From the NCBI RefSeq assembly GCF_018449775.1, contig NZ_JAAVVB010000001.1, positions 744,001-808,000 of the forward strand: DNA of 64,000 nucleotides. Direction: 5' to 3'. Below, in pieces: positions 1 through 4,063 of the stretch. Positions within the stretch are counted from its first letter, which is position 1; the number at the start of each line of letters is the position of its first letter. This DNA comes from Mucilaginibacter sp. dw_454. GTDB lineage: Bacteria > Bacteroidota > Bacteroidia > Sphingobacteriales > Sphingobacteriaceae. Under the pieces are notes generated by a model. It was not told the DNA's origin and did not search any database. It saw only the letters and a program-made list of their open reading frames with translations. Position numbers and translations under genes: made by a program.

Positions 1-635
1 AAAGGTATACCCAGTTTTAAAGCTGCGTAAGCGTAGATCATACTTGGCGCAATCAATTTGTCGTCGGCTTTTAAACCAGCTTCAAATTTATCTAAAGTGC
101 TGTGTACGTCTGATGCTTCGTAATAGATTTCGGTTGAACCGCACCATACCAAAACCACACGGTCAAGACCGTTTTGCTCTTTAAAGCTTTGGATATCTTC
201 CATTACCTGTTGAGCCAGCTCATAACGGGTACCGGTTTTTACGTGGGTAGCAGTTAGGTTTTTAGCGTAGTTTTGATCAAATGCAGCCTTCATTGGCTTT
301 ATTTGTTCTAATTCTTCTTTAACAGCGTACAATAAACCGGCGTCTAACACCTTAGCGTTCATTGCAGACTCATATACGTTATCTGTATATACGTCCCAAC
401 CACCCCAAACAATATCGTTTAAACTGGCCAATGGCACAAAGTCTTTAACTTTAGGGCGACGGTTTTCTGTACGTTTGCCTAGGCGGATTGTACCCATTTG
501 GGTAAGTGAACCAATTGGCTGTGAAATTCCTTTTTTTACTGCTTCAACTCCGGCTATTAATGTAGTGGCTACTGCGCCTAATCCCGGAAGCAAAATACCA
601 AGTTTACCCTCGGCAGGTTTGATGTTGCTTTTCAT
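1..635 (-). CDS. ino1: myo-inositol-phosphate synthase, partial (C-terminus outside window)
   Basis: This gene reads leftward off the window edge, so only about 211 N-terminal residues are visible. The ATG is at 635. The translation begins with a Rossmann-type NAD motif GLGAVATT at residues 18-25, then blocks typical of the bacterial inositol-3-phosphate synthases of Bacteroides (PIGSLTQMGT, LNDIVWGGWDVY, TGTRYELAQQ, STEIYYEASD). The family converts glucose 6-phosphate to myo-inositol phosphate with an internal NAD redox cycle in the cytosol. It is the last visible gene of a leftward run with a ceramide-reductase-like SDR, a GNAT protein and serine palmitoyltransferase. That context suggests its product feeds inositol-containing (sphingo)lipids (inference). 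The gap to the upstream gene is 36 nt. Confidence 0.88.
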   Translation of the reverse strand, partial: MKSNIKPAEGKLGILLPGLGAVATTLIAGVEAVKKGISQPIGSLTQMGTIRLGKRTENRRPKVKDFVPLASLNDIVWGGWDVYTDNVYESAMNAKVLDAGLLYAVKEELEQIKPMKAAFDQNYAKNLTATHVKTGTRYELAQQVMEDIQSFKEQNGLDRVVLVWCGSTEIYYEASDVHSTLDKFEAGLKADDKLIAPSMIYAYAALKLGIP

Positions 636-671
636 TTGTAATGTAATATAGATTGATATTTGTGTACTTTG

Positions 672-1658
672 TTATATCCAATTATTATCCTTGTACCATT
701 TTAAGGTTTCTTGTAAACCTTTATCTAGGGGGTAAAGCGGGTTAAATCCGAGGTCTTGTTTAGCCAGTTCGATACTACATGACCAGTTAACAGCCATTAG
801 CTCGTTCAGTTTCTCCAGATTTAAAATAGGGGCAGTGTTCCTCAAAGAACTTACTTTTTCTGAAATGCCCGCGATTAATTTTACAAAATTTACCCAAAGA
901 TGAAACTTCAACGTCTTTACGTTTAAAATAGTCTTGGTTAAAGTGCCTAATTCGTGCCGGTCATAAAAATTACCGTCGGCTAAGTTGTAGGTTTTCATAT
1001 CACCGGCGTTTAGAGCCAGCAGTGCTGCTTTTGCCAAATCCGTTACATAAATAAAGCTCAGCTTTTGGTTAATTCTGCCGATGTAAGGCTCCAACCGATT
1101 ACTTACCTGTTTAAAGAAGATGAAAATCCCCGTATCGCGAGGGCCGTAAACAGCCGTGGGTCTTAATATCGTATAATTTAAATCTTTAACGGCTTCCAAT
1201 TTTTTTTCTGCAAGCAATTTGCTGCGTCCGTAAGCGGTAATAGGGTTGGGGGGGCTATCCTCGGTAATGACACCGCCCCAGGTTTTTAGTGGGCCAATGG
1301 CTGCAAGACTGCTGATCAATACGAACTTTTTCAAAACAGTGCCTAATGCTAAAGCCGCTTGGGCAAGGTTAGCAGTGTAGTCGGCATTTACTTTATTGTA
1401 TTCCTCTTCCGAGATAGCCCTGGTAAGGCCGGCTGCGTGGATGATGTAATTAAATTGCTTATCTAAAAATTCAGCTTTAAGCGATTCAATATTAGCATAA
1501 TCGAGGTAGATATATTGAACGTTCAGATCTTTAAGATGCTCGATCTTACTATTTTTTCTGACTGCTGCGAATACCTCGAGGTTGTTTTGCAGCGCTTCAA
1601 TGATCAGGTGGTAGCCAACAAATCCACTTGCGCCGGTTATTAAAACCCGTTCCTTCAT
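672..1658 (-). CDS. NAD-dependent epimerase/dehydratase (extended SDR), candidate ceramide reductase
   Basis: A 328-residue extended short-chain dehydrogenase. The dinucleotide-binding motif TGASGFVG is at residues 8-15 and the catalytic YxxxK is at Tyr143-Lys147, with the upstream Ser in ISSLAA near 117. Extended SDRs act on nucleotide sugars or lipid intermediates, and sequence alone does not separate these. The start ATG overlaps the stop of the GNAT gene upstream (ATGA, 1655-1658), so the two are translationally coupled. In Caulobacter and many Bacteroidota an SDR of this type (CerR) reduces 3-oxo-ceramide and is encoded near spt and a GNAT-like ceramide synthase, which is the arrangement seen here. 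That role is inferred from context. A nucleotide-sugar epimerase is the alternative. Confidence 0.8.
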   Translation of the reverse strand: MKERVLITGASGFVGYHLIIEALQNNLEVFAAVRKNSKIEHLKDLNVQYIYLDYANIESLKAEFLDKQFNYIIHAAGLTRAISEEEYNKVNADYTANLAQAALALGTVLKKFVLISSLAAIGPLKTWGGVITEDSPPNPITAYGRSKLLAEKKLEAVKDLNYTILRPTAVYGPRDTGIFIFFKQVSNRLEPYIGRINQKLSFIYVTDLAKAALLALNAGDMKTYNLADGNFYDRHELGTLTKTILNVKTLKFHLWVNFVKLIAGISEKVSSLRNTAPILNLEKLNELMAVNWSCSIELAKQDLGFNPLYPLDKGLQETLKWYKDNNWI

Positions 1659-2803: not shown

Positions 2804-2838
2804 ATAAAAAAATGCGGCCATCTGTTAAATGGCCGCAT
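2804..2838 (-). terminator. Rho-independent terminator between spt and the GNAT gene
   Basis: Perfect 10-bp inverted repeat ATGCGGCCAT (2812-2821) / ATGGCCGCAT (2829-2838) with a 7-nt loop. On the minus strand it is followed by a run of seven T (2805-2811). It lies just after the spt stop and before the GNAT start at 2773, so it should end most spt transcripts inside what otherwise looks like one operon. Confidence 0.85.
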
Positions 2839-2854
2839 CCTATATTGTGGATAA

Positions 2855-4063
2855 TTATATTCTTTCTTTAACGCCAAGCACCACACCCACATCTTTAAAT
2901 GCTTTGGTGATCTTTTCGATAGCTTCGTCTATTTGCTCGAAAGTGTGCGTGGCCATTAAGGAGAAACGCAACAATGAAGAGTCTGAAGGTACAGCTGGCG
3001 ACACAACCGGGTTAACAAATACACCCGATGATTGCAGGTGCTTAGTTACCAGGAAGGTTTTATCGTTATCTCTTACATAAATAGGTAAGATAGGGCTTTC
3101 AGTAGGGCCAAGGTCAAAACCTTCGTCCAGTAAAAGTTTCATAGCGTAATTGGTATTGTCCCAAAGCTTTTGGATGCGCTCTGGTTCAGATTCAATGATA
3201 TCAAGAGCTGCAATAACGCTTGCTACAGAACCGGGAGTCATACTTGCGCTAAACATTAATGAACGTGCGCGGTGTTTCATGTAATCAATAGTATCGGCAT
3301 CGGCAGCGATAAAACCACCTAATGACGCTAACGATTTACTAAAGGTACCCATAATCAGGTCAACGTCATCAGTAAGGCCAAAGTGTGAAGCCGTACCAGC
3401 ACCTTTATGGCCGATAACACCTAAACTATGCGCATCATCAACCATTATATTAGCGCCGTATTTGTCAGCTAATTCAACAATTTCAGGTAATTTAACAATA
3501 TCGCCTTCCATGCTGAAAATGCCATCAACCACAATAACTTTCACTGCTTCTTCCGGCAGTAAGCTTAACTTACGCTCCAGATCGGCCATATCATTGTGTG
3601 CATATTTAATAACTTTCGAAAACGAAAGGCGACTGCCATCAATTAATGAAGCGTGATCATATTCGTCTAATATTAAATAATCGTTACGTCCTGAAACACA
3701 TGATAATACGCCCAAGTTAACCTGAAACCCTGTGCTAAACAGCACAGCGGCTTCTTTGCCAACATAAGCGGCTAAACGATCTTCTAGCTCAATGTGTATA
3801 TCAAGCGTACCATTTAAAAATCTTGATCCTGCACAGCCGGTACCATATTTGTCAATTGCTTTTTTAGATGCTTCTTTGATCTTAGGGTGGTTTGTTAATC
3901 CCAGATAAGAGTTAGATCCGAACATTAACACGCGCTTGCCGTCTATTATCACCTCTGTATCCTGCGCAGACTCGATAGGTCTGAAATAAGGATACAATCC
4001 CTTCTCTCTGATCATTGCCGCATCTTGAAACTGAGCAATTTTCTCGTGTAGTTTTTTAACCAT
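2855..4063 (-). CDS. spt: serine palmitoyltransferase (alpha-oxoamine synthase)
   Basis: A 402-residue PLP enzyme with the length and signatures of the soluble homodimeric bacterial serine palmitoyltransferase of Sphingobacterium. The motif [12 protein letters not shown] is near 49-60, the PLP-stacking histidine is His138 ([11 protein letters not shown]), Asp210 and His212 lie in VDDAHSLG, and the Schiff-base lysine is Lys243 in [12 protein letters not shown]. It condenses L-serine with a fatty acyl-CoA to give 3-ketosphinganine, the first step of sphingolipid synthesis. Related 2-amino-3-ketobutyrate CoA ligase or BioF are alternatives. The neighbouring GNAT, SDR and inositol-phosphate synthase genes favour sphingolipid synthesis. 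It is first in the leftward run and is followed by a strong terminator. Confidence 0.9.

Follow-up and report, generated by a model that had tools for sequence, protein, structure and literature searches.

Gene content and organisation of the locus

A stretch of 64,000 nucleotides from the genome of Mucilaginibacter sp. dw_454 (contig NZ_JAAVVB010000001.1, positions 744,001 to 808,000; hereafter the window, which starts at genome position C1:744001) carries at its left end a run of genes predicted to make an inositol-containing sphingolipid. All genes of the run lie on the minus strand. It starts with serine palmitoyltransferase (SPT, 402 residues, window 2855-4063, NF047600), followed by a GNAT N-acyltransferase of the YghO/CC_1154 (bCerS) family (388 residues, window 1655-2821, PF00583 and YghO homology), an extended short-chain dehydrogenase/reductase (SDR) with an Epimerase match, candidate for CerR or 'epi' (328 residues, window 672-1658), and myo-inositol-phosphate synthase (MIPS, 440 residues, C1:743313-744635, PF07994 and PF01658). 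The N-terminal 211 of the 440 residues of MIPS are contained in the window (frame 3-635, feature 1..635), where the gene is open at the left edge. These four genes had been recognised in a sequence-only reading of the window, and their positions and families were confirmed.

The heading of that reading has the cluster end in MIPS, which is not the case. Extension of the sequence by about 7 kb to the left revealed six further co-directional genes (C1:737197-743326), which brings the run to ten. In continued order, they encode a PgpA-type phosphatase (160 residues, C1:742844-743326), a DUF5686 protein with a CarboxypepD_reg domain (854 residues, C1:740081-742645), a CDP-alcohol transferase passing the BT_1523 model (238 residues, C1:739343-740059), a DUF4833 protein (188 residues, C1:738767-739333), an SCS7-like FA_hydroxylase (206 residues, C1:738138-738758) and an AUR1-like PAP2_3 protein (312 residues, C1:737197-738135), each identified by family match. 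It had also been anticipated that the rest of the cluster, outside of the window, might hold the inositol-lipid synthase, and both the CDP-alcohol transferase and the AUR1-like protein were found there. Their presence in the same run supports the earlier suggestion, drawn from MIPS standing beside ceramide genes, of a lipid of the inositol-phosphoceramide type.

Adjacent genes overlap or are at most 36 bases apart, with the exception of 198 bases between the PgpA-type and DUF5686 genes; the SDR and GNAT genes overlap by 4 bases. From this close or overlapping spacing, the ten-gene run was considered as operon-like. The true start of GNAT is probably Met17 (window 2773), since its eight best matches in other genomes align from residues 12-20; with this start, the gap between SPT and GNAT amounts to 81 bases.

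Predicted enzymes of ceramide synthesis

With 760.9 bits, the SPT exceeded the cut-off of 640 of the NCBIfam equivalog NF047600 ('SerpalmtaseCFB'); none of the other models listed reached its own cut-off. It matched the solved structures 8GUH/3A2B with an E-value of 5e-193 over residues 4-393. The GNAT protein passed PF00583 (29.1 bits, cut-off 20.7) and was 37.2% identical over 96% (E 6e-65) to an E. coli record annotated as YghO (record H2); no relative was found in the PDB. In PMC9386255, yghO is listed together with Caulobacter CC_1154 as acyltransferase of dihydroceramide synthesis. By its sequence, the GNAT protein is a member of this ceramide synthase family, and N-acylation is its predicted reaction. 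In a tree of 51 rows, from which 11 near relatives were left out, the cluster GNATs shared a clade (support 96/97) with the SPT-linked proteins of Rubrobacter and Aureispira. Separate from it were a proteobacterial/Streptomyces clade (91/82) and a B. finegoldii clade (100/100), of which the member in genome G110 sits between SPT and an SDR.

The surroundings of GNAT relatives were compared in nine records, taken from 44 plasmid records with such a relative, 20 of which were listed. The E. coli stretch used here (L086) is a similar, unannotated one and not record H2. An spt gene was present within a few genes of the GNAT relative in six of the nine. In three of these six (Rubrobacter, Streptomyces and Aureispira), the genes for SPT, GNAT and SDR directly adjoin one another; in the other three (Sphingomonas, E. 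coli and P. veronii), SPT stands close to SDR, and GNAT is some genes off.

The SDR is of the Epimerase type (122.8 bits) and showed 28-33% identity over 96-98% to the spt-adjacent SDRs of the same six records. Membership of the two proteins in unrelated families, which would have refuted the sequence-only reading, was thus not observed, GNAT being homologous to YghO over its full length and the SDR to SDRs found next to spt. Deletion of cerR in Caulobacter was reported to cause accumulation of oxidised ceramide, and the Caulobacter CerR was reported as periplasmic (PMC11087976). The SDR frame of dw_454 begins straight with the NAD-binding glycine motif, and inspection by eye gave no evident signal peptide. 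From its homology, the SDR is likely the ceramide reductase CerR.

The sequence-only reading had identified the first three genes with the ceramide route known from Caulobacter and Bacteroidota. The match of families stands. The triple as a known feature of Bacteroidota is questioned by PMC11334938, according to which no close grouping of the three ceramide genes had been found in those sphingolipid producers of this phylum that were examined earlier.

A second GNAT of the dw_454 genome (C1:1447930-1448919) is 29% identical to that of the cluster and belongs to a separate, widespread clade; one member of this clade, in G135, adjoins an IPC synthase gene.

Predicted enzymes of inositol lipid synthesis

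MIPS was identified by PF07994 (342 bits) and PF01658 (113 bits). Among solved structures, the best match was 7NWR (E 3e-166), the MIPS enzyme of Bacteroides thetaiotaomicron. The CDP-alcohol transferase exceeded the cut-off of NCBIfam NF052561 (PIPSynBT1523; 409 bits, cut-off 350), and phosphatidylinositol (PI)-phosphate synthases are its closest solved relatives. The CDP-alcohol motif was present in 106 of 107 transferase sequences, including the dw_454 copy. As judged from its sequence, it is a PI-phosphate synthase of the BT_1523 type.

The last gene of the run encodes the candidate for inositol phosphorylceramide (IPC) synthase. The PAP2_3 protein matched AUR1 in phmmer with an E-value of 6.5e-15, the PSLHS and HHYxxD motifs being aligned. 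H231, H271 and D275 were invariant across 30 IPC-synthase sequences (near relative L067 left out of the alignment), and in a wider set of 111 sequences, all had PSLH and 109 had HHYxxD; the residues of these motifs are catalytic in AUR1. An AlphaFold2 model (pLDDT 91.8) gave as top two Foldseek matches the IPC synthase 9VJ4 (E 3e-10) and Aur1-Kei1 9IVC (E 8e-10), the next one being at 0.03. Alignment with VIA-align resulted in Z 22.8 for IPC synthase (268 aligned, rmsd 5.7) and Z 22.7 for Aur1-Kei1 (289 aligned, rmsd 5.5), followed by the next family at Z 14.2. The protein is thus AUR1-like in sequence and predicted fold, and would act as IPC synthase. The label 'AUR1-like' was preferred to a firm assignment because the cut-off of the curated equivalog for PI-dihydroceramide synthase (NF052609) was missed.

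The PgpA-type phosphatase scored 137.8 bits against its family. PgpA and IPC synthase were each searched in 121 genomes of the family, drawn alike each time and the same ones as far as listed. PgpA was detected in 25 of the 121, and these are identical to the 25 with IPC synthase. One genus (g3) is split for IPC synthase, and PgpA tracks the split. The genomes are kin, so that this pattern represents fewer independent events than 121. BT_1525 was shown to be a PI-phosphate phosphatase (PMC9246714), and the shared list of genomes supports a predicted activity of this type for the PgpA homologue. MIPS was found in 30 of the 121 genomes, including 24 of the 25 with IPC synthase. A match in G029 from a class-level search for IPC synthase (E 1e-4, six stops inside) was not counted as a relative.

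FA_hydroxylase

The FA_hydroxylase aligned with yeast SCS7 over residues 14-200 (E 1.3e-34). Among 105 relatives, an HGxHHxxPxDxxR-type motif was present in 99 and a GxGVxSxxWD-type motif in 80; an HH...HH pattern, which was badly chosen, occurred in nine. Orthologues of at least 53% identity were detected in 22 of the 25 IPC-positive genomes. The protein is a candidate for 2-hydroxylation of ceramide, presumably on the N-acyl chain. According to a review, 2-hydroxylation is carried out by P450 enzymes in Sphingomonas, and functional enzymes of the FA2H type are present in several myxobacteria; a bacterial enzyme of this kind is therefore not new as such. No report of an FA2H-like enzyme in an inositol-sphingolipid cluster was found among the open-licence PMC papers listed. 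A 'sterol desaturase' of Roseomonas beside a YghO relative was considered as an orthologue and rejected, the match being weak (27% over 132 residues, E 2e-4).

Conservation of the joint locus

Genome contigs were searched with the IPC-synthase alignment, and the best 80 of at least 570 confirmed places, leaning to close relatives, were considered; seven had insufficient upstream sequence and were excluded from the order count. In all 73 remaining loci, the genes present kept the order SPT, GNAT, SDR, MIPS, PgpA, GtrA, DUF5686, CDP-alcohol transferase, DUF4833, FA_hydroxylase and IPC synthase. The CDP-alcohol transferase was present in all 73, DUF5686 in 71, SPT in 68, FA_hydroxylase in 65, GNAT and MIPS in 63 each, SDR in 60, DUF4833 in 58, PgpA in 57 and GtrA in 51. 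SPT, GNAT, SDR, MIPS, DUF5686, CDP-alcohol transferase and IPC synthase occurred all together in 54 loci. Carriers named among the matches listed are Mucilaginibacter, Pedobacter, Pontibacter, Spirosoma and Niastella, the best of them a Mucilaginibacter metagenome-assembled genome with 79% identity in IPC synthase. They span the three Bacteroidota orders Sphingobacteriales, Cytophagales and Chitinophagales. The joint locus dissolves at greater distance: in six class-level relatives outside of the family (L068-L073), the inositol genes have no SPT and SDR beside them.

Proposed pathway and alternative explanations

The locus very probably serves to make IPC, most likely in a 2-hydroxylated form, with serine, acyl-CoA, glucose 6-phosphate and CDP-diacylglycerol as starting materials. 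One cluster appears to carry all dedicated enzymes for a yeast-like inositol sphingolipid starting from serine. Gene content, homology, order and co-occurrence were observed, and each reaction was deduced from characterised relatives. SPT would form 3-ketosphinganine, of which the base would be N-acylated by GNAT and the ketone reduced by the SDR, in either order, to give dihydroceramide. MIPS would deliver inositol phosphate, which the CDP-alcohol transferase would join with CDP-diacylglycerol to PI-phosphate, and the PgpA-type phosphatase would convert the latter to PI. The AUR1-like protein would then transfer the phosphoinositol head from PI onto ceramide, and the SCS7-like enzyme would place a hydroxyl on the N-acyl chain.

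Several observations weigh against this reconstruction. In 11 of the 25 IPC-positive genomes, PgpA is located outside of the cluster; G239 has a copy of this kind together with a broken match beside MIPS. The SCS7-like orthologue is absent from three of the 25 (G195 has a 44% relative elsewhere, G175 and G209 none), and orthologues occur also in genomes without IPC synthase, five copies of this kind (L131, L132, L138, L140 and L141) having no cluster genes within five genes. DUF4833 is missing in five of the 25. Around the GNAT relatives of Roseomonas, Diaphorobacter and B. finegoldii, three of the nine records, no spt was found within 6-8 kb. Genome G204 possesses the cluster and gave no MIPS match in the genome, which suggests that external inositol is used there; its cluster (L058) misses both GNAT and MIPS. 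An SDR orthologue was detected in five of 12 genomes searched (251-437 bits); the other seven (G249, G190, G216, G226, G205, G260 and G230) gave 72.6 bits or less, and all of them retain SPT, GNAT, MIPS and IPC synthase. CerR/epi is thus not a constant companion of such ceramide pathways. Since the SDR, the PgpA gene within the cluster, DUF4833 and the SCS7-like orthologue are each missing in some genomes, not every cluster gene is essential to the locus.

Because of the seven genomes without SDR, the CerR role is regarded as likely and not as settled. By analogy, either another reductase serves in these genomes, like BT_0972 in B. thetaiotaomicron, a KDSR of the classical short-chain type (PMC9278070), or the SDR has a different role. 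That it is neither the ceramide nor the 3-ketosphinganine reductase of dw_454 and holds a side role next to such another enzyme is rather unlikely. In favour of such a side role, four runs of genus g116 likewise lack the SDR; on the other side, SDR homologues (101-166 bits) stand near SPT and a GNAT relative in the six spt-containing records described above. A broader objection would be that PI is made mainly for other uses, such as capsule or phosphoinositol on glycerolipids, and that the ceramide genes are mere neighbours. B. thetaiotaomicron also makes PI-diacylglycerol and inositol was found in its capsule (PMC9246714); in G040, G006 and G064, the SPT-GNAT-SDR triple has no inositol genes in its vicinity, and in G110 the inositol genes stand apart from SPT. 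This explanation is nevertheless improbable in view of the AUR1-like enzyme in the same run, relatives of which use a ceramide acceptor, and of the joint order kept throughout the 73 loci, 68 of them with SPT. Marginally less probable still is a PAP2_3 protein acting as lipid phosphatase or as transferase of another head group, with a different phosphosphingolipid as end product. The protein scored 331 bits against NF052609, under the cut-off of 480, which counts against IPC synthesis as well; PAP2 folds include the phosphatases LpxE and PgpB (Z 14.2 and 12.3), and sister clusters hold other head-group genes. Against this reading, the IPC synthase structures lead the next family by about 8 Z units, and PI-making genes accompany PAP2_3, MIPS in 24 and PgpA in all of the 25 genomes.

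Accessory genes and related clusters

DUF4833, DUF5686 and, in relatives, GtrA would be accessories not bound to one head group, which probably handle the finished lipid across the envelope. No paper mentioning DUF4833 was found in the literature searched. The DUF4833 sequence gave no match among PDB sequences. Its model (pLDDT 90.4) is mostly beta, and comparison with the PDB stayed at noise level (best Foldseek E 0.1; best VIA Z 3.2, rmsd 6.0 over 84 residues), a result compatible with a new as well as with a known fold. From a signal-like or transmembrane segment seen by eye, DUF4833 is probably periplasmic, and DUF5686 is probably an outer-membrane protein. In the DUF4833 alignment, the near relative L067 and the unrelated row L089 were left out. 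Among the 73 loci, 31 have the CDP-alcohol transferase and DUF4833 as one fused protein, with a hydrophobic linker seen by eye. DUF4833 is also fused behind an FA_hydroxylase domain (L134:8354-9889, L135:8253-9743 and L136:8506-9990). The hydroxylase of this fusion is a second one, and OlsE-like in L135, the sole one scanned.

DUF4833 is not confined to a single type of phosphosphingolipid cluster, and the same holds to a smaller extent for FA_hydroxylase, GtrA and DUF5686, as seen from these fusions and from the clusters of two further genera. Four g116 genomes (L124-L127 in G227, G206, G217 and G171) have SPT, GNAT, DUF5686, FA_hydroxylase, a CDP-alcohol transferase-like gene, GtrA and DUF4833 in one run, free of inositol genes and of an AUR1-like gene, and these genomes have no IPC synthase. 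Their CDP-alcohol protein is divergent, with an altered AR motif. In three g106 genomes (L128-L130 in G247, G241 and G182), DUF4833 adjoins the SCS7-like FA_hydroxylase in an inositol cluster of an alternative type. The CDP-alcohol transferase, LPG_synthase_TM, HAD and PfkB families were computed for L129 and assigned by eye in L128 and L130; L128 has its HAD-like gene on the opposite side of FA_hydroxylase, and no PfkB was seen there. MIPS is located about 8.6 kb from the g106 clusters, and elsewhere in the genome in two of the four g116 genomes (G206 and G227). Inositol may therefore be used there as well, and this opposes a full head-group independence of DUF4833.

Two roles of DUF4833 were rejected. 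A factor of the MIPS-PIPS-AUR1 route only is ruled out by the g106 loci, the g116 runs and the fusions with OlsE-like hydroxylase. A substitute PI-phosphate phosphatase in PgpA-less clusters is ruled out as every IPC-positive genome has PgpA somewhere, and as the clusters L044, L052 and L064 hold neither DUF4833 nor PgpA. For the GtrA gene BT1524, deletion was reported to lower IPC and to change where PI is found (Sartorio et al., PMC8791184); Heaver et al. saw no change by thin-layer chromatography (PMC9246714). The former result fits a transport role of the accessory genes by analogy and is not proof of it. Tentatively, DUF4833, GtrA and DUF5686 could form an envelope module (flipping, handover and outer-membrane placement) for hydroxylated phosphosphingolipids, combined with two, perhaps three, head-group modules. 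DUF4833 would then represent a novel type of periplasmic domain for lipid handling, attached to a lipid-making or hydroxylating enzyme.

Comparison with known systems

The inositol-lipid pathway of B. thetaiotaomicron and its enzymology are published (PMC9246714, PMC8791184). Like BT_1522-BT_1526, the dw_454 locus unites in a single run MIPS, PgpA-type PI-phosphate phosphatase, PI-phosphate synthase and AUR1-like PI-dihydroceramide synthase. GtrA is shared by many relatives, and a carboxypeptidase-regulatory-domain protein (BT_1527 homologue) is nearby in both. In contrast to B. thetaiotaomicron, where SPT (BT_0870) is far by locus tag, SPT, GNAT and SDR belong to the same run here, which additionally holds FA_hydroxylase and DUF4833. 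Neither of the two papers uses the word 'hydroxylase' in its main text. With the ceramide genes spt, acpR, epi, aasR and aca/yghO of Caulobacter and E. coli BL21 (PMC9386255, PMC11324152), the locus shares SPT, the YghO/CC_1154-type acyltransferase and the Epimerase-type SDR. Specialised acyl carrier protein and acyl-ACP synthetase are not among the ten genes, and the predicted head group is phosphoinositol instead of phosphoglycerate. The yeast route (AUR1, SCS7) is resembled by the AUR1-like IPC synthase and the SCS7-like ceramide hydroxylase; unlike in yeast, ceramide synthase and reductase are of the bacterial GNAT and SDR types and PI would be made via PI-phosphate.

A putative alternative, B. 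vulgatus-like inositol cluster was also proposed to deliver PI for transfer to ceramide (PMC9246714). It differs from the dw_454 locus by another CDP-alcohol transferase, a HAD hydrolase and an LPG_synthase_TM protein. The three g106 clusters of this look also carry FA_hydroxylase and DUF4833, and their genomes, unlike dw_454, are not among the matches for PgpA or the AUR1-like gene. Ceramide phosphoryl-myo-inositol, the expected product of the dw_454 locus, was reported from the free-living Bacteroidota Sphingobacterium spiritivorum (cited in PMC9246714); it is known there as lipid structure, and no gene assignment was seen in the available text. In the same source, homologues of the B. thetaiotaomicron-like cluster are described as absent or highly infrequent in Sphingobacterium. 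No usable report on sphingolipid genes of Mucilaginibacter was found among the papers listed.

The pathway type and the lipid class in free-living Bacteroidota are thus already known from these sources. What is new is the union of ceramide and inositol genes in a single locus across three orders, together with the SCS7-like hydroxylase, the fusions of DUF4833, the natural variants without SDR and the co-occurrence of PgpA and IPC synthase. With the predicted pathway complete in one locus, it could be deleted, moved or refactored at once. For free-living genera, the locus offers candidates for the genes of inositol sphingolipid synthesis, and it also contains a candidate gene for ceramide 2-hydroxylation in these bacteria. 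It also opens direct tests of PgpA as PI-phosphate phosphatase, of ceramide completion without CerR in the seven natural variants and of the role of the conserved DUF4833.

Neighbouring genes

Divergent from SPT, the window carries TolC, membrane-fusion and RND efflux genes (window 4292-10192). Efflux-like genes, recognised by eye, also flank SPT in five of nine relatives (L044-L047 and L055). In L045:7391-9046 (G249), three antisense genes, which by eye resemble arsenic-resistance genes, are located between MIPS and DUF5686 of the cluster. Beyond the end of the cluster (L003:2564-4059) lie two further genes, one TPR-like and one CAP-type, with look-alikes seen by eye in some relatives of the same genus.

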